Positions 41,092 through 47,888 of a DNA stretch of 64,000 bases are shown piece after piece. Below the pieces are notes generated by a model. The model was not told where the DNA came from. It was given only the letters and a program-made list of their open reading frames with translations, and searched no databases. Positions within the stretch are counted from its first letter, which is position 1, and every line of letters starts with the position of its first letter. The position numbers and the translations under genes are program-made. Source of the DNA: Leptolyngbya sp. KIOST-1 (GTDB lineage: Bacteria > Cyanobacteriota > Cyanobacteriia > Phormidesmidales > Phormidesmidaceae); NCBI RefSeq assembly GCF_000763385.1, contig NZ_JQFA01000002.1, positions 1,054,001 through 1,118,000 on the forward strand, read 5' to 3'.

Positions 41092-41439
41092 ATGATGCTC
41101 AAATCAACTACCCGGCATATCCACATCTATACCGCTGTTGTTGCCAACAACGAACTGGTGCCCAGCGACGACAAACTCACCCTCGACATCGATCCCGACA
41201 ACGAATTCAACTGGTCAGAAGATGCCCTCAAGGCCGTCTATGCCGAGTTTGACCGCCTGGTCGATGCCGCCGCCGGAGAAGATTTAACCGATTACAACCT
41301 GCGCCGGATTGGCTCTGATCTGGAGGGGTTTATCCGTCAGCTGCTGCTTCAGGGGGCAATCAGCTACAACCTCAAAAGCCGCGCCCTCAACTACAGCATG
41401 GGACTGCCACGGGTTGAAGCCGAAGAATCGGCAGGCTAG
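41092..41439 (+). CDS. ndhM: NAD(P)H-quinone oxidoreductase subunit M
   Basis: NdhM is a cyanobacterial/plastid-specific hydrophilic subunit of NDH-1 at the ferredoxin-binding peripheral arm. The start MMLKSTTRHIHIYTAVVANN fits the family's MLxKSTTRH start. Also conserved are LTLDIDPDNEFNWSEDALKA, GEDLTDYNLRRIGSDLEGFI and LNYSMGLPRVE. Length 115 is normal. An open frame extends upstream to 40885, but that part overlaps gloB and is not conserved. Confidence 0.95.
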   Translation: MMLKSTTRHIHIYTAVVANNELVPSDDKLTLDIDPDNEFNWSEDALKAVYAEFDRLVDAAAGEDLTDYNLRRIGSDLEGFIRQLLLQGAISYNLKSRALNYSMGLPRVEAEESAG

Positions 41440-41702: not shown

Positions 41703-44099
41703 GTGATCCAGTGCTCTAATCCATCCTGTCGGTCGGTTTCGGCCCCCCCTGCCAGCCACTGCAAGGTTTGCCAGACTCCCTTGCTATACCGATTTGTGCT
41801 GGCGATCAGCGATGGTCCTCAAAAAGCTCGTCCTGGCGATCTGGTCGCCGGTCGGTTTTTGGTCTGGAGCGATGGGACAACTTCGCCCCCCACAGCCCAC
41901 TCCATCTGGTTAGATACCCGGCCCGACCACCCCGTTCCTCCGCTGGAGCAGATTCCAGCCTCGGTCCTTAACTATTTGAAGCTGTTTGCCCTGGGTCAGC
42001 ACATGCCCAGGCCCTACGCCTACCTGATCCCCGAACAAACCGGGCTCACCGCAGCGGTCCTGCTGCTCGATATGGCGCCAATCAGCGTGCGCATTGCGCA
42101 GACCGTTCAGGGCGACAGCGGGCAAGCCCCCCAGGGTCAAGTTGAGGCGGCGCTATTGCCCTCCCTGTCCCAGGCCTGGGTGCAGGGAACGGCCCTGCAG
42201 CAGCTGAACTGGCTGCGGCAGCTGGCCCAGCTGTGGCCCCAGTTGGCCACGGAGCGGGTGGCCTCGACCCTGCTGCGGGTCGACGAGCTGCGGGTCGATG
42301 GAGCGCTGCTGCGCCTGACCACCTTGACGCCTGACGCCGCCCACCCTCCCCTGGCCGAGTTGGCCGCGGGGTGGCAATCCCTGGTCAAAACCGCTCAGCC
42401 CTCCGTCCGGCCCTACCTGGGATGGCTGGTGAAGAGCCTCAAAGATGGTCAACTGAGCGCGGCCAAGGATCTGCTGGCGGAACTGGAGGGGGCGATTCAA
42501 ACCCTCGGGCGGGAGCTGTTGGTGGCCGTAGATTGGGCGGCGGATACCGATCAGGGACCAACCCGCGATCGCAACGAAGATGCCTGCTATCCCGAAAAAG
42601 AGGCCCGCCAGCAGCGCCTCTCCGGACGCACAGCGAGCCCCAATCCCCCACCCCTGCTGCTGGTGTGCGATGGCATTGGCGGCCACGAACAGGGCAATGT
42701 GGCGTCGCAAACCGCGATCAAACTGCTCCAGCAGGAGCTGGAGCCACTGACTCAGCAGCCCCACCTGTCTCCCAGCGCGATCGCCGAACGCCTGCGCCAG
42801 GCCCTGATTCTAGCCAACGATGCCATCTCCGCCCGCAACAACGACGAACAGCGCTCTGCTCGGGCCCGTATGGGCACCACGGTCGTCGTGGCCCTGGTCC
42901 ATTTCCCCTACGTTTCGATTGCCCACATCGGCGATAGTCGGGCTTACCGCATTAGCCCCCACACCTGCTACCAGATTACCGTCGATGACGATGTCGCCTC
43001 GCGGGAAGCCCAGCTGGGCTACGCCCTCTACTCCGAGGCCGTGCAGCTACCCAGCGGCGGGGCGCTGATTCAGGCCCTGGGCATCAGCAACTCTGACTTG
43101 CTCTACCCCACCGTGCAGCATTTGCTGCTCGACGACAAAGCTGTACTGTTGCTCTGCTCCGATGGCCTCAGCGACTACGACCGAGTGGAAGCCCTGGCCC
43201 CCCATCTGGTTGGCCCGTTGAATCAGCAGCCAGGTTCCCTCGGCCCGGCGGTTTCAGCCCTCATTCAGCAGGCCAATCGGCTCAACGGCCACGACAACGT
43301 CACCGTAGGGCTGATGCGATTTATTCCCCAACCGGGGGCTGCGGTAACCCTTAACCCTGGCCCGCTGCGACAAACCCAGGCCGAACCTAACGACCTGGAA
43401 CCTGACGCGTCCCACCCAACGACCCGGCCCACCACCCACGTGGTGGCACCGGCCGGTCGAACCGCCGCCAGCCCGGCCCTCCGGCGCTCAAGGGTGGCCT
43501 GGGGAGCCTTTTTGGGGGGAATGGCCGTGGTCCTGGCGGTATTGGGTGCGGTGGGTCTGTTTTTTGGTCGGCGTCCGGCTGTTCCCGTAGCCCTGCGGCC
43601 CCTACAGCGGCCCTGGCCCCTGGCGGCCCTGGCGGGGCAGCCGCTGCCAGAGATGGCCCTGGCCGCCACCCTTGAGGTGCCCCTGGGGTCCTACTGGCAG
43701 TCACAGCAGGCCTCTAGCCCCGACCCCAACCTGCCCGAAATCGGGGACGGGCGACTGCGACTAAGGCCGCAGCCAGTCCCATCGGTGCAGCCCACAACGG
43801 CTGGATCAGCCCCGGCCCTCGTGGCGACAGGCAGTGTTCTCAGGGTTGTCAGTCGCCAAACTACCGCTGACAATGTCGATTGGGTCAGGGTGCAGGTCTG
43901 CTCTATTCCTTCAGGGGTATCCCTGGACCAGCAACCCCAGGAGACCACCCAGCCCACGGCCCCGGCCCCCCCCCTCGATCTGAGCCAGCAACTTCTGGCC
44001 CCAGGGGATGAAGGCTGGGTAGAGGTCCGCCACCTCTATAGAACAGCGGCCTTCCTGGAGTTGGTTACCCCGGCTCAGTCAGGGCGCTGCCAGCCCTGA
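41703..44099 (+). CDS. PP2C-type protein phosphatase with zinc ribbon and membrane anchor
   Basis: A 798-residue Ser/Thr phosphatase, starting at GTG 41703 with AGGA just upstream. Residues 1-25 form a zinc ribbon (C4, C9, C20, C23). Residues about 30-270 look like a degenerate domain, possibly a former kinase fold; I do not recognise it firmly. The PP2C domain spans about 275-540: TRDRNEDA (288-294), CDGIGGHEQGN with D323, IAHIGDSRAYRI, CSDGLSDYD with D487 and GHDNVTVGLM with D531. These metal-binding aspartates are intact, so it should be active. A proline/threonine linker leads to one membrane helix (599-622) and a 175-residue outer or C-terminal region. It heads a same-strand cluster with a CHAT-FHA gene 53 bp downstream. 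Confidence 0.9.
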   Translation: MIQCSNPSCRSVSAPPASHCKVCQTPLLYRFVLAISDGPQKARPGDLVAGRFLVWSDGTTSPPTAHSIWLDTRPDHPVPPLEQIPASVLNYLKLFALGQHMPRPYAYLIPEQTGLTAAVLLLDMAPISVRIAQTVQGDSGQAPQGQVEAALLPSLSQAWVQGTALQQLNWLRQLAQLWPQLATERVASTLLRVDELRVDGALLRLTTLTPDAAHPPLAELAAGWQSLVKTAQPSVRPYLGWLVKSLKDGQLSAAKDLLAELEGAIQTLGRELLVAVDWAADTDQGPTRDRNEDACYPEKEARQQRLSGRTASPNPPPLLLVCDGIGGHEQGNVASQTAIKLLQQELEPLTQQPHLSPSAIAERLRQALILANDAISARNNDEQRSARARMGTTVVVALVHFPYVSIAHIGDSRAYRISPHTCYQITVDDDVASREAQLGYALYSEAVQLPSGGALIQALGISNSDLLYPTVQHLLLDDKAVLLLCSDGLSDYDRVEALAPHLVGPLNQQPGSLGPAVSALIQQANRLNGHDNVTVGLMRFIPQPGAAVTLNPGPLRQTQAEPNDLEPDASHPTTRPTTHVVAPAGRTAASPALRRSRVAWGAFLGGMAVVLAVLGAVGLFFGRRPAVPVALRPLQRPWPLAALAGQPLPEMALAATLEVPLGSYWQSQQASSPDPNLPEIGDGRLRLRPQPVPSVQPTTAGSAPALVATGSVLRVVSRQTTADNVDWVRVQVCSIPSGVSLDQQPQETTQPTAPAPPLDLSQQLLAPGDEGWVEVRHLYRTAAFLELVTPAQSGRCQP

Positions 44100-44152
44100 C
44101 CAGTCCTCCACGCCTCCATCCAACGTTTGGCCCTGGTTATTTCGGCCCGCCT

Positions 44153-45790
44153 ATGCTGTCGTCCGACACCCTTACCCTTTGCCTTGCCATCGATCGCCTT
44201 ACCCAGGTCGAGTCCAATCACTATGCCATCTGGGTCTTAGAAAGCCCGTTCCCCGGCGGTTACGCCCACCACGATCGCCTGTGGGACAGCCAGATGGCCC
44301 AGCTTTGGGAGAGCTGGCAACAGTTTTTTTCGCTGCGGGGACTGCCCCAGGTACCCCACGTGCCATCGGCCTACGTGCCGGAGTTTCACCTCGACGATCT
44401 GCTCGACCGGGTGGCTCCGTCAGCGGAAACCGGCAGCAAAACCGGACGACTGATGCAGGGTCTGGGGGTCAGCCTCTGGGAATGGCTGTTTGACGGGCCC
44501 ATTCGCCAAACTCTGGAGCGCAGCCTGGGTATGGCCATTGGCCAAAATCGACCGCTTCAGCTGCGGCTCGAGGTGCGCCCCCCCGAGCTGATTAGCCTAC
44601 CCTGGGAAATTATGCAGCCCCAGCCCGGTTGCCCGGCCCTCTCCCTGGGGCCCCAGGTGCTGTTCAGCCGCACCGCCAGCACCGTAGAACCGCTGCCAGC
44701 CGCTGAACTGGAAACCTCCTTGCGAATTCTGCTGGTGCTGGGACAGGACGAACCCGGCATGGAGCAGAACGCCAAAGATGTTTTGCAGCTGCCCCAGGAG
44801 GCCGAAGCCCTCAAGCAGCTCCTGGAGCTGAGCGCCTCTCGGCTCAGCTACCAGGGCGCTAATCTGGTGGTCTGCCAGGTGCAAACCCTGGTCGAGCCCG
44901 ATACCAAAACCCTGCTCAACGCGCTGGAGACCGGCTACTTCAATGTCTTCTTCTACGCCGGGCATGGGGTACCCGCCCCCGACGGGGGGCTATTGTTTTT
45001 GCGCCAGGGAAGCAACCTGAGCGGCACTGAACTGGCCCAGGGGCTGGCCCGCAACGGTATTCGCCTGGCGGTGTTTAACACCTGTTGGGGGGCACAGCCC
45101 GACCTCAAGCAGCAGCGGGTGATTTCGCGCAGCAGTTTGGCCGAGGTGCTGCTGCACCACGGCGTACCGGCGGTGCTGGCCATGCGCGACTCCATTGCCG
45201 ACCACGAGGCGCTGAGCTTTATTCAGGTGCTGGCCCGGGGGCTGGCCGAGCGACAGCCCGTGGCCCAGGCCGTGGCGCTGGCCCGCCAGCACTTGCTCAC
45301 CGCCTACCGCTTCAACCATACGGCCTGGACGCTGCCGGTGCTCTACCAGCACCCCCAGTTTGAGGGGCACCTGCTGCGCGAAGTGGGGCTGGCGGTGACT
45401 CAGCTGCCGGGGCAGGAAATGCCGGCCGCCCAGTCGGTGGTGCTGCGCTGTTTGAATGCACCTACCCGCCTGTGGCGGCTCTACGATGGCTACCTGCGGG
45501 TGGGGCGGCTGCCGGACAACGACCTGGTAATTTTGGAGCCCTGGGTTTCGGGGCAGCATGCCGAAATTTTTTGCCGCACCCAGTTTAACAATGGGGTGCA
45601 GGAGACCTACTACTACCTGCGCGATATGTCACGCTACGGGTCGTACTACTTTGACCAGCAGGGCTGGCACCACGTCCACCGGGGCGAGGTGCCGCTGGCG
45701 TTGGGGGCGGCGATTCGGTTCGGCAGCCCCGAGGGGGAGCTGATGGAATTTACCCTGGAGGGTAGCCCCAAATCGATCCCACCCTGCTAG
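44153..45790 (+). CDS. CHAT protease-like domain fused to an FHA domain
   Basis: A 545-residue fusion. The CHAT (caspase HetF-associated with TPR) domain covers about 120-400, with catalytic His H271 in FFYAGHGVPAPDGG and Cys C311 in AVFNTCWGA, so the protease dyad is intact. The C-terminal FHA domain (about 435-535) has the phosphothreonine-binding residues: GR in LRVGRLPDNDLVI, SGQH in WVSGQHAEIF, and N/D-rich loops. The N-terminal 110 residues are unassigned. It follows the PP2C gene by 53 bp. A protease that reads phosphothreonine beside a phosphatase that removes it suggests a phosphorylation-gated proteolytic switch (inference). Confidence 0.88.
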   Translation: MLSSDTLTLCLAIDRLTQVESNHYAIWVLESPFPGGYAHHDRLWDSQMAQLWESWQQFFSLRGLPQVPHVPSAYVPEFHLDDLLDRVAPSAETGSKTGRLMQGLGVSLWEWLFDGPIRQTLERSLGMAIGQNRPLQLRLEVRPPELISLPWEIMQPQPGCPALSLGPQVLFSRTASTVEPLPAAELETSLRILLVLGQDEPGMEQNAKDVLQLPQEAEALKQLLELSASRLSYQGANLVVCQVQTLVEPDTKTLLNALETGYFNVFFYAGHGVPAPDGGLLFLRQGSNLSGTELAQGLARNGIRLAVFNTCWGAQPDLKQQRVISRSSLAEVLLHHGVPAVLAMRDSIADHEALSFIQVLARGLAERQPVAQAVALARQHLLTAYRFNHTAWTLPVLYQHPQFEGHLLREVGLAVTQLPGQEMPAAQSVVLRCLNAPTRLWRLYDGYLRVGRLPDNDLVILEPWVSGQHAEIFCRTQFNNGVQETYYYLRDMSRYGSYYFDQQGWHHVHRGEVPLALGAAIRFGSPEGELMEFTLEGSPKSIPPC

Positions 45791-45892
45791 TAAAATCACA
45801 AAAATGCTCCCGCTGTACGGAATCCTCTGGCGGGGCGCTGTATCCACTGTCATCAGGTACCGTTACCATCTCGTGCATCTGTAGATAACGCT

Positions 45893-46555
45893 ATGACCCA
45901 GCCCTCCCAAAACCCCAACTCTGCTTCTGAGCCCGCCATGGCCGCCGAACACGATTTGCTTACCACCATTCTCAGCCCTGAGCCGGCCTATCCCTGGCAG
46001 CCGCTGGATCCCGAGGCAGAGGGCTATCTGGCCAACCTGGAGGCCGAGTTTGAGGCCCTGGCGGAGGACGACTTTAGCACTGCGATCGCGGCGGGTTGGC
46101 AAATCCTGTCGGCCCAAATCGCCACCCAGATGAACGCCACCCAGGCCGCTGATCTCTCCAGTCCGACCGCACCGACCTCGGTGCTGAGCCAGCTGCGTCC
46201 CTTTGAGGGGCGGCTGCCGGGTGAGCTTTTGCAGCGCCTGGCCACCGCCGCTACGGCCCTAGCCCGCAGCGGGCAGCCGCTGATCGATCAGCTGGTGCAG
46301 TGCGCCAACGATATTTTGCCCGGCTGGAACCCGGATGATCTGGGCGTGCTGGCTCGCCCCCTGGCCTATTCCCTGCGCGACGGACGGGGCGAAATTTTAG
46401 AGCTCAATCTGCGCGCCATTCCGGCCAGGGCCTGGGACTCGCTGTCGGAGTTGGAGCAGGCGCGACTGACCCTGACCATTGCATCGGTGGCCCTGAAGGC
46501 GGCGGCCGAAGGGGAAAGCCCTGACGATGGCGCCGCTGACTCAGCCGATGGGTAG
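45893..46555 (+). CDS. uncharacterised acidic helical protein
   Basis: A 220-residue protein without a domain I recognise. It is strongly acidic (especially 1-60 and the last 20 residues), has no membrane segment or signal peptide, and appears mostly helical, with several leucine-rich amphipathic stretches (RLPGELLQRLATAATALARS, QPLIDQLVQCANDILPGW). One cysteine only. Codon use is like that of its neighbours, supporting a real gene. It lies 102 bp after the CHAT-FHA gene and 151 bp before the TPR-CD225 gene, all on the same strand. Possibly a partner of one of them. Confidence 0.75.
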   Translation: MTQPSQNPNSASEPAMAAEHDLLTTILSPEPAYPWQPLDPEAEGYLANLEAEFEALAEDDFSTAIAAGWQILSAQIATQMNATQAADLSSPTAPTSVLSQLRPFEGRLPGELLQRLATAATALARSGQPLIDQLVQCANDILPGWNPDDLGVLARPLAYSLRDGRGEILELNLRAIPARAWDSLSELEQARLTLTIASVALKAAAEGESPDDGAADSADG

Positions 46556-46706
46556 ATGGTAATGGGTCGGTGAATGGCGACAATAAACCAAATTGCGCTA
46601 AAAAACTGGGCGACCCGTTACGATCTCGTAATGCTTCACTAACAAGGCAAGATTCCCAGGGAATCATGGGGATGGTTACGCCTCCTCAGGACACTTCTGG
46701 ATACTC

Positions 46707-47888
46707 ATGGGACTCTACTTCACCCCCTGGTTACGTCGACAGCAGGCCCGCTATCGCTACCGGCAAGCTCTCACCCACCTTCGCAAGGGCGATGTCGATG
46801 CGGCGTTGACGGTGTTGCCCCAGGCCCTCGGCCACTATCCTGCTCCAGCAGAGATCCACATCGAGCTAGGTAAGGCCCACTGGCAGACGGGGGATACGGT
46901 GGCGGCGCTGGAACACTACAGTGCTGCGATCGCCCTCGACCCCACCAGCGTGCGCGCCTACGGCAACCGTGGCCTGCTGCACTGCCACCAGGGCCAGGAG
47001 GAGCTAGCCCTGGCCGACTGGCAGCAGGCGCTGATTCACCAGCCGGGCCATCCCCTGATTCACTACAACCGGGGCCTGCTGCACTTTCGTCGGCAGCACT
47101 ACGCCCTGGCCCTAAACGACTTTGACGCCGCCATTGACGCCAACCCCAACCTGGCAGAGGCCTACCTGCACCGGGGCTACGCCTACGAACAGCTGGGCCA
47201 GCCCGTCGCCGCCGCCCACAACTGGGAACTGGCCCTCTGCAACGACCTCAACCTCGACCAGGCGCGGCTCAAGCTGCACCATCTGCACCAGGCCCACCGC
47301 GATCGCGCCATTTCCCAGCGACTGCAGTCGGAGCTGGACCTGCGACAAATTACCGTCGTCGCCCAATACCAGGACGACGGCCTGCGGATTCAGGTGCATC
47401 GCCCGGTGGGAGTCGGTATCAACTACTTCACCCTGCCTGACCAGATTCGCACCCTGATCATCAAGTGGCAGCTGGAGGAGGTGCAGGGCTTTGAGCTGAC
47501 CGGGCAGGTGCAGGATCAGCCCGTGGTGGAGTGGCGGGGCCACTACAAGCTCTTCCACGGCCAGCCCTGTCCCCCGGCCCGATGGCACCGGGTGCTGCTC
47601 ACGGCCTTCGTGATTTTTCCGCCCCTGGGCATTCCCGCCCTGGCCTGCGCCATGAACCTGCGCCAGGCCTACCAGCGCGGCGACTACCTGACGGCATTGC
47701 GAGCCTCCAGGGCGATCCAGGGGCTGTGTCGCGCCGGAAGCATTGCCTCCCTCACCCTGGTTACGCTGCTGGCGGGCTACTGGGGCTACCAGCGGCTCTA
47801 CGGGCCACCGGAGGCCTCGGCCGCTCCGGTGCAGCTGGCTCCGACCCAGCCGACCCCGCTCAGGAAGCCGGCTCCGGCTGATAAGTAG
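46707..47888 (+). CDS. TPR protein with C-terminal CD225 (dispanin/IFITM-like) membrane domain
   Basis: Residues 15-180 hold four to five TPR units (AALEHYSAAIALDPTSVRAY, LALNDFDAAIDANPNLAEAY). Residues about 205-290 form a beta-rich module I cannot name. Residues 298-360 match the CD225 pattern: hydrophobic half-helix FVIFPPLGIPALACAM, the YQRGDY..AL.AS loop (conserved G-D and A..S), then helix SIASLTLVTLLAGYWG. CD225 is the intramembrane domain of IFITM/dispanin proteins; bacterial versions are known but uncharacterised. The start is the ATG at 46707. The 3' end overlaps a convergent phosphoribosyltransferase gene by 29 bp. Confidence 0.8.
   Translation: MGLYFTPWLRRQQARYRYRQALTHLRKGDVDAALTVLPQALGHYPAPAEIHIELGKAHWQTGDTVAALEHYSAAIALDPTSVRAYGNRGLLHCHQGQEELALADWQQALIHQPGHPLIHYNRGLLHFRRQHYALALNDFDAAIDANPNLAEAYLHRGYAYEQLGQPVAAAHNWELALCNDLNLDQARLKLHHLHQAHRDRAISQRLQSELDLRQITVVAQYQDDGLRIQVHRPVGVGINYFTLPDQIRTLIIKWQLEEVQGFELTGQVQDQPVVEWRGHYKLFHGQPCPPARWHRVLLTAFVIFPPLGIPALACAMNLRQAYQRGDYLTALRASRAIQGLCRAGSIASLTLVTLLAGYWGYQRLYGPPEASAAPVQLAPTQPTPLRKPAPADK

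Follow-up and report, generated by a model that had tools for sequence, protein, structure and literature searches.

What function joins a phosphatase, a putative caspase-like protease and a protein of no recognised family whose genes stand side by side in a cyanobacterial genome? This question is raised by a locus of Leptolyngbya sp. KIOST-1, located in a 64,000-nucleotide stretch of contig NZ_JQFA01000002.1 (positions 1,054,001 to 1,118,000; this whole stretch is called the window below), taken from contig 2 of a 6.3 Mb genome. Four open reading frames (ORFs) encode there a PP2C phosphatase, a protein joining a CHAT protease domain to an FHA domain (CHAT-FHA), a small acidic protein called UNK here, and a membrane protein with TPR and CD225 domains (TPR-CD225). 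An initial annotation, made from the letters of the sequence, had proposed these four genes as a new system. In our analysis, CHAT-FHA and UNK form a near-obligate pair among cyanobacteria, PP2C usually adjoins them in a conserved order, and the protease is kin to the developmental protease HetF. The explanation we tentatively prefer, with confidence a little short of even, is that the genes encode a cyanobacterial module for regulatory proteolysis, fixed in the chromosome, in which phosphorylation would steer a HetF-like protease working with UNK.

The distribution of the genes was determined in two samples of the cyanobacterial class, a larger one of 388 genomes (cut-offs E<=1e-100 for CHAT-FHA and E<=1e-12 for UNK) and an even one of 117 genomes (E<=1e-70 and E<=1e-4, respectively). 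Among the 388 genomes, CHAT-FHA was found in 190 and UNK in 191; both were present in 188 and neither in 195, leaving two genomes with CHAT-FHA only (G193 and G351, in our own numbering) and three with UNK only (G058, G285 and G337). The even sample contained 52 genomes with both, 64 with neither and one, again G058, with UNK only. An innocent reading is available for three of the five exceptions. CHAT-FHA of G193 lies close to a contig end, starting from base 127 on the side where UNK would be expected, and G285 retains only the C-terminal end of CHAT-FHA, at a contig end. In G058 (locus L260, on G058:C16), PP2C and UNK are still open, but the CHAT-FHA gene between them has decayed to a remnant interrupted by seven stops; this is a loss of CHAT-FHA caught in progress. 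The two genes were also lost jointly within clades that keep both: G136 has neither and G200, of the same genus, has both, and G084 has neither in comparison with seven f30 genomes that have both. Twelve of the 52 protease carriers in the even sample had no UNK close by; in one of the twelve, G025, the set is split between contigs, with UNK on the contig that also holds the FHA end. The pairing is thus independent of linkage, and its persistence where the genes are unlinked argues for a working relation between the two proteins. That CHAT-FHA and UNK work together is held with good confidence.

Gene order was compared in 80 named loci, the best 80 of 383 CHAT-FHA relatives, taken with up to 6 kb per side; many of them are clipped by contig ends and many are close to the window. 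Genes were called for CHAT-FHA in 77 of these loci, UNK in 69, PP2C in 66, ndhM in 50 and TPR-CD225 in 18. Wherever the gene was placed relative to a CHAT-FHA ORF (77 loci), UNK was downstream (67/67) and PP2C upstream (64/64), all on the protease strand, and ndhM was likewise upstream on that strand (48/48). With distances taken from start to start in the even sample, 40 of the 52 protease genomes had UNK on the same strand no more than 4 kb away, 37 had the best-scoring PP2C copy no more than 6 kb away, and 32 had both. Where they are linked, PP2C, CHAT-FHA and UNK therefore have the same order and strand in different cyanobacterial families, and the proposed four-gene system stood for these three genes. 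It failed for the fourth, whose conservation is at genus level only. The C-terminal half of TPR-CD225 was found in 11 of the 117 genomes, nine of them in the window's family, and the protein also occurs in G032 and G092, both without CHAT-FHA. Outside the window's own genome TPR-CD225 sits, in this sample, on contigs other than that of the protease, including the eight further members of the window's family that carry it. In the window's genus the gene stands next to the module wherever the locus extends far enough, with the exception of G006, G015 and G019. TPR-CD225 is a local genus-level neighbour and no member of the module, and a four-gene module was ruled out because this gene is not co-distributed.

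The CHAT region of the protease reached 69.2 bits with the Pfam profile (cut-off 24), and the catalytic residues H271 and C311 were kept in every one of the 103 distinct relatives aligned over 450 amino acids (aa; 127 matched rows), which bears out the intact His-Cys dyad of the initial annotation. From these sequence features, CHAT-FHA is predicted to be a soluble caspase-like protease. By this protein, the genome's nearest named relatives are Nodosilinea and Leptolyngbya strains; no named orthologue was established in Anabaena or Synechocystis. The NCBIfam HetF profile matched the CHAT region at 1.8e-46, and the domain shares 34% identity over 318 columns with an 849-aa HetF-like protein of the same genome, with the catalytic His and Cys aligned. 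A second match, in a frame of about 770-1000 aa and at 34-40% identity, was found in most protease-carrying genomes. Since both proteins are present in the same genome, CHAT-FHA is, judged by these alignments, a paralogue of HetF. With the HetF equivalog profile NF045509, for which the cut-off is 1200 bits, it scored 158.9; a score below the cut-off (601.9 bits) was also obtained for the HetF-like protein of the same genome. A figure legend in PMC8406250 gives HetF a transmembrane (TM) segment and a TPR part behind the CHAT domain, whereas CHAT-FHA has no TM-like stretch by hydropathy, no TPR match in Pfam, and an FHA domain in place of the C-terminal half of HetF. A review (PMC12288457) reports that HetF cleaves PatU3 and in this way influences heterocyst formation and cell division.

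FHA domains typically contact their ligand through Gly-Arg, Ser-x-x-His and Asn-Gly motifs, the Asn being expected before the Gly. In the 103 relatives, G451 was kept in 103, R452 in 87, and S466 and H469 in 102 each. A phosphothreonine-reading FHA domain had been claimed initially; the Pfam match to FHA was found, and the motif is only partly canonical, as discussed below.

The PP2C protein is the other part that would link the module to phosphorylation. Its zinc-ribbon cysteines (C4, C9, C20 and C23) and metal-binding acids (D293, D323, D411, D487 and D531) were invariant in all 11 aligned rows, and one TM-like stretch was found, in agreement with the intact site, zinc ribbon and membrane anchor noticed at first. 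A set of 51 rows was picked by its zinc-ribbon and PP2C motifs, so that motif invariance in it is circular and was not counted. An AlphaFold2 model of residues 1-542 built with the 51 sequences had a mean pLDDT (predicted local distance difference test) of 91.2 and a pTM (predicted template modelling score) of 0.92. Residues 273-542 of the model superposed on tPphA with Z 26.5 and a root-mean-square deviation of 2.3 over 233 aligned residues, and PstP also gave Z about 26. As predicted from this fold and the metal-binding acids, the phosphatase domain is a group I bacterial PP2C. The family profiles PRK14559 (NF011149; 1.3e-69, 235.6 bits, cut-off 374) and Stp1 (137.9 bits, cut-off 230) also matched. 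The protein thus shares its PP2C domain with PRK14559, a family of cyanobacterial Ser/Thr phosphatases, and the group I enzymes Stp1, PstP and tPphA, but it has an additional TM and C-terminal region and scores below the cut-offs of PRK14559 and Stp1. HltA was ruled out as the same phosphatase, being a GAF-PP2C of another group in the accessible text of PMC9430166.

The residues between the ribbon and the phosphatase domain probably form a pseudokinase domain. In the model, read by eye, residues 30-270 follow the strand and helix order of a kinase, and in a search of a viral library kinases (0.89, 0.72, 0.63 and 0.60) were exceeded in probability by PP2Cs only. Ranked by E-value, the same search gave 17 PP2C-type rows, two unrelated proteins (0.031) and then kinases (at least 0.076), and a search of PDB folds with the PP2C model returned a list filled by PP2C chains. 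A profile comparison with the zinc-ribbon kinases of the same genome (hhalign) reached 95% with the ribbon included. Without the ribbon the match was weak (P 0.074; unrelated controls 0.13 and 0.24), and a second ribbon-free comparison gave P 0.041, with 1 of 100 column shuffles reaching its score. No Pfam kinase model matched in any of the 11 PP2C N-termini. The N-terminal part of the protein shares with the zinc-ribbon Ser/Thr kinases the ribbon and, probably, a collinear kinase-like domain, but residues of the catalytic-loop and DFG types are absent at the aligned places.

A Ser/Thr kinase encoded elsewhere had been expected to act on the module. The genome does hold 20 Pkinase matches, 19 of them over the cut-off, but none is specifically tied to the module. 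In G025, a gene for a zinc-ribbon Ser/Thr kinase-GUN4 protein (L269:736-2574) lies about 2.5 kb from UNK and is a possible candidate for the upstream kinase in that lineage. Control of the module by phosphorylation through FHA and PP2C is rather likely in our judgement. Of the membrane-bound, phosphorylation-gated protease module proposed at first, the link to phosphorylation remains the best reading, and membrane attachment holds for PP2C only.

With an E-value limit of 1, UNK had no match among the families of Pfam, NCBIfam and PADLOC, and its best PDB sequence match was a 'Four Helix Bundle Protein' at E=0.007. It has an isoelectric point of 4.05 and an all-helical model (residue blocks 101-200 with mean pLDDT >=90), which fits the acidic helical protein described at first. 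A known family was ruled out for it by these profile searches and by fold matches at noise level. Among distinct sequences, D149 and R155 were invariant (105/105) and R162 was kept in 103 of 104. A Tyr-Pro-Trp stretch at 33-35 was about 95% kept in the 105 sequences, in a region with a mean pLDDT of 59. On the model, UNK would have a flexible conserved motif ahead of a folded core, an arrangement that would suit a docking or cleavage site.

If the module is a regulatory one, one of the many Ser/Thr kinases of the cell would make a phosphothreonine docking site on a protein, and the FHA domain would dock the CHAT protease on the protein bearing it. The membrane-anchored PP2C, steered by its dead kinase domain, would act as the opposing enzyme, removing the phosphate to switch docking or activity and reset the state. 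CHAT-FHA would act on or through UNK, most likely by cutting it, in analogy with the reported cutting of PatU3 by HetF. That UNK is the substrate of the protease is possible, at clearly less than an even chance. The complete scheme, a second caspase-like pathway parallel to HetF-PatU3 with a phosphothreonine-docked protease, a pseudokinase-steered phosphatase and UNK as target, is unlikely to hold in every part.

UNK could instead be a partner that is not cut, an adaptor, inhibitor or stability factor holding CHAT-FHA until a phospho-signal arrives, the substrate lying elsewhere. The folded helical core with its conserved D149, R155 and R162 fits a binding surface equally well, UNK is open in G058 where CHAT-FHA has decayed, and the pairing outlasts the loss of linkage. 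However, PatU3, the target of the best-characterised relative (HetF), is a regulatory protein, and a table in PMC10952713 lists Csx30 as the protein on which the CHAT protease of type III-E CRISPR systems acts. This alternative is possible if somewhat doubtful. The type III-E complex, Craspase (Csx29 TPR-CHAT with Csx30), is like the present pair in combining a CHAT protease with a dedicated partner protein; it is unlike it in being activated by RNA, whereas phosphorylation is suggested for the CHAT-FHA module.

Several results weigh against a phosphorylation-steered module of this composition. In the FHA domain the position before the Gly is Tyr, Phe or Trp in 89 of the 103 proteins and Asn in only 12; because the usual Asn is missing in 91, reading of phosphothreonine by CHAT-FHA is uncertain. 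Two exceptions to the pairing are without an innocent reading: in G337, UNK is accompanied by only partial, HetF-like CHAT matches, and in G351, which carries CHAT-FHA, UNK was not matched up to E=0.01. A tree of rpoB was built for 60 of the 117 genomes, selected to span 33 families; on it the two traits change at least nine and at least eight times, but only three independent pairs on well-supported branches were available, of which two agree and one does not differ. The sign test on them gave p 0.5, so that the pairing is not significant when relatedness is counted and shared ancestry stays a possible cause of it; co-occurrence was not accepted as statistically proven, and a Fisher value for the even sample was set aside because it takes no account of relatedness. 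The UNK model had no weighty fold match (Foldseek best E 2.1, VIA best Z 5.2), values that were discounted because they are within noise for helical models. The best-scoring PP2C copy lay elsewhere in 15 of the 52 protease genomes. Its N-terminal family was found in 97 of the 117 genomes, with up to four copies each, which makes the phosphatase wider than the module, and with its paralogues it occurs in many genomes without CHAT-FHA.

This last point would also suit a housekeeping neighbourhood, in which inherited order holds the three genes together, PP2C has targets of another kind and the genes are not linked by a phospho-switch; the functionally unrelated ndhM is kept alongside in 50 of the 80 loci. 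Such an explanation is nevertheless improbable: CHAT-FHA and UNK are still paired when unlinked, an FHA domain on the protease goes well with an adjoining PP2C, and a gene for another FHA-protease (FHA-PrsW) is present at some UNK loci.

Stress-induced cell death or immunity had also been suggested, with CHAT-FHA as the killer and TPR-CD225 as the membrane part of an anti-phage system. CHAT proteases do occur in defence systems, Borvo and type III-E CRISPR being listed in the table of PMC10952713. However, the best PADLOC match among the four proteins was BovA at E=0.069, the other three being without a match up to E=1, and the protease was found at E<=1e-60 in none of 72,556 plasmid records, the cyanobacterial share of which was not counted. 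Each of the 190 positive genomes had one CHAT-FHA match at E<=1e-100 (up to three candidates were scored per genome), the gene lies in a housekeeping neighbourhood with ndhM, TPR-CD225 is not co-distributed, and the nearest named relative is HetF, a protease of development and cell division and no defence effector. The suggestion was not supported by these results: a defence system was rejected on the PADLOC, plasmid and neighbourhood results, and a cell-death or anti-phage role is very improbable. No CRISPR genes were seen among the module neighbours named or scanned. In the accessible text of an eLife 2020 survey of conflict systems (PMC7159879), caspase and FHA domains occur and the word CHAT does not.

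Coordinates of the features are collected in Table 1. The ORF calls agreed with the four same-strand genes described initially, with gaps of 53, 102 and 151 bp in order; none of the three gaps held a terminator-like site on the + strand, and one - strand site was found in the second. The TPR and CD225 assignment of the fourth gene was upheld by Pfam (TPR_1 3.8e-24; CD225 5.8e-7, 30.0 bits, cut-off 27.1). The hydropathy window gave one TM-like stretch each in PP2C and in TPR-CD225 (from residue 296), and none in CHAT-FHA or UNK. ndhM is not claimed as a functional part of the module. Beyond it on the upstream side lies a gene for a GloB-type hydrolase; downstream of the four genes, on the opposite strand, are a phosphoribosyltransferase gene and then two transporter genes.

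Table 1 Features of the locus, in positions of the window (sub-regions in residues of the protein)
Feature	Position	Strand	Description
ndhM (NDH-1 subunit M)	41107-41439	+	PF10664 9.4e-51; conserved upstream neighbour, anchors the locus
PP2C phosphatase	41703-44099	+	ORF, 798 aa, GTG start; Pfam PP2C_2 2.5e-9
PP2C sub-regions (approximate)			Zinc ribbon 1-30; probable pseudokinase 45-270; group-I-type PP2C 273-542
PP2C distal part			One TM-like stretch from residue 603; C-terminal region SH3-like by eye only
CHAT-FHA	44153-45790	+	ORF, 545 aa; Pfam CHAT 5.4e-19, FHA 3.2e-8
CHAT-FHA sub-regions			HetF-like CHAT about 103-415 (His271/Cys311); C-terminal FHA, Pfam 449-524
UNK (220-aa protein)	45893-46555	+	ORF; acidic, all-helical by model, near-obligate companion of CHAT-FHA
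TPR-CD225 membrane protein	46707-47888	+	ORF, 393 aa; judged outside the conserved module

Other genes were observed beside the module in relatives. A gene joining FHA to a PrsW-type intramembrane protease (PF00498 and PF13367) adjoins UNK at L018:12904-14289, L266:3548-4885 and L260:5680-7032, and in 19 of the 80 named loci a look-alike of FHA-PrsW, assigned by look and not by Pfam, is encoded downstream on the other strand; FHA-PrsW is a second FHA-protease beside the module. Further neighbours were recognised by eye directly upstream of PP2C: in G029 a STAS-type anti-sigma-antagonist and an RsbW-like kinase gene (L016:6865-7709), and in G036 a gene for an SPFH-like membrane protein that also carries an FHA domain (L018:6027-7022).

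No prior study of the CHAT-FHA/UNK set was found in the mainly open-access literature, where an earlier description is possible, and no paper was found that treats the CHAT domain, the FHA domain and cyanobacteria together. The parts are of known kinds; their combination and the companion family UNK appear to be undescribed in that literature. About half of the 388 sampled cyanobacterial genomes carry the CHAT-FHA/UNK pair. HetF is a precedent for the control of development and division by a CHAT protease, and a second CHAT protease with its own phospho-reading domain, a phosphatase neighbour and a companion offers a testable pair of enzyme and probable target. The joining of a pseudokinase to a phosphatase, should it be confirmed, would be interesting by itself. 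The module would link regulated proteolysis in cyanobacteria to Ser/Thr phosphorylation and, if the proposal is true, would represent a caspase-like switch under phospho-control that serves ordinary bacterial physiology, not death or defence.

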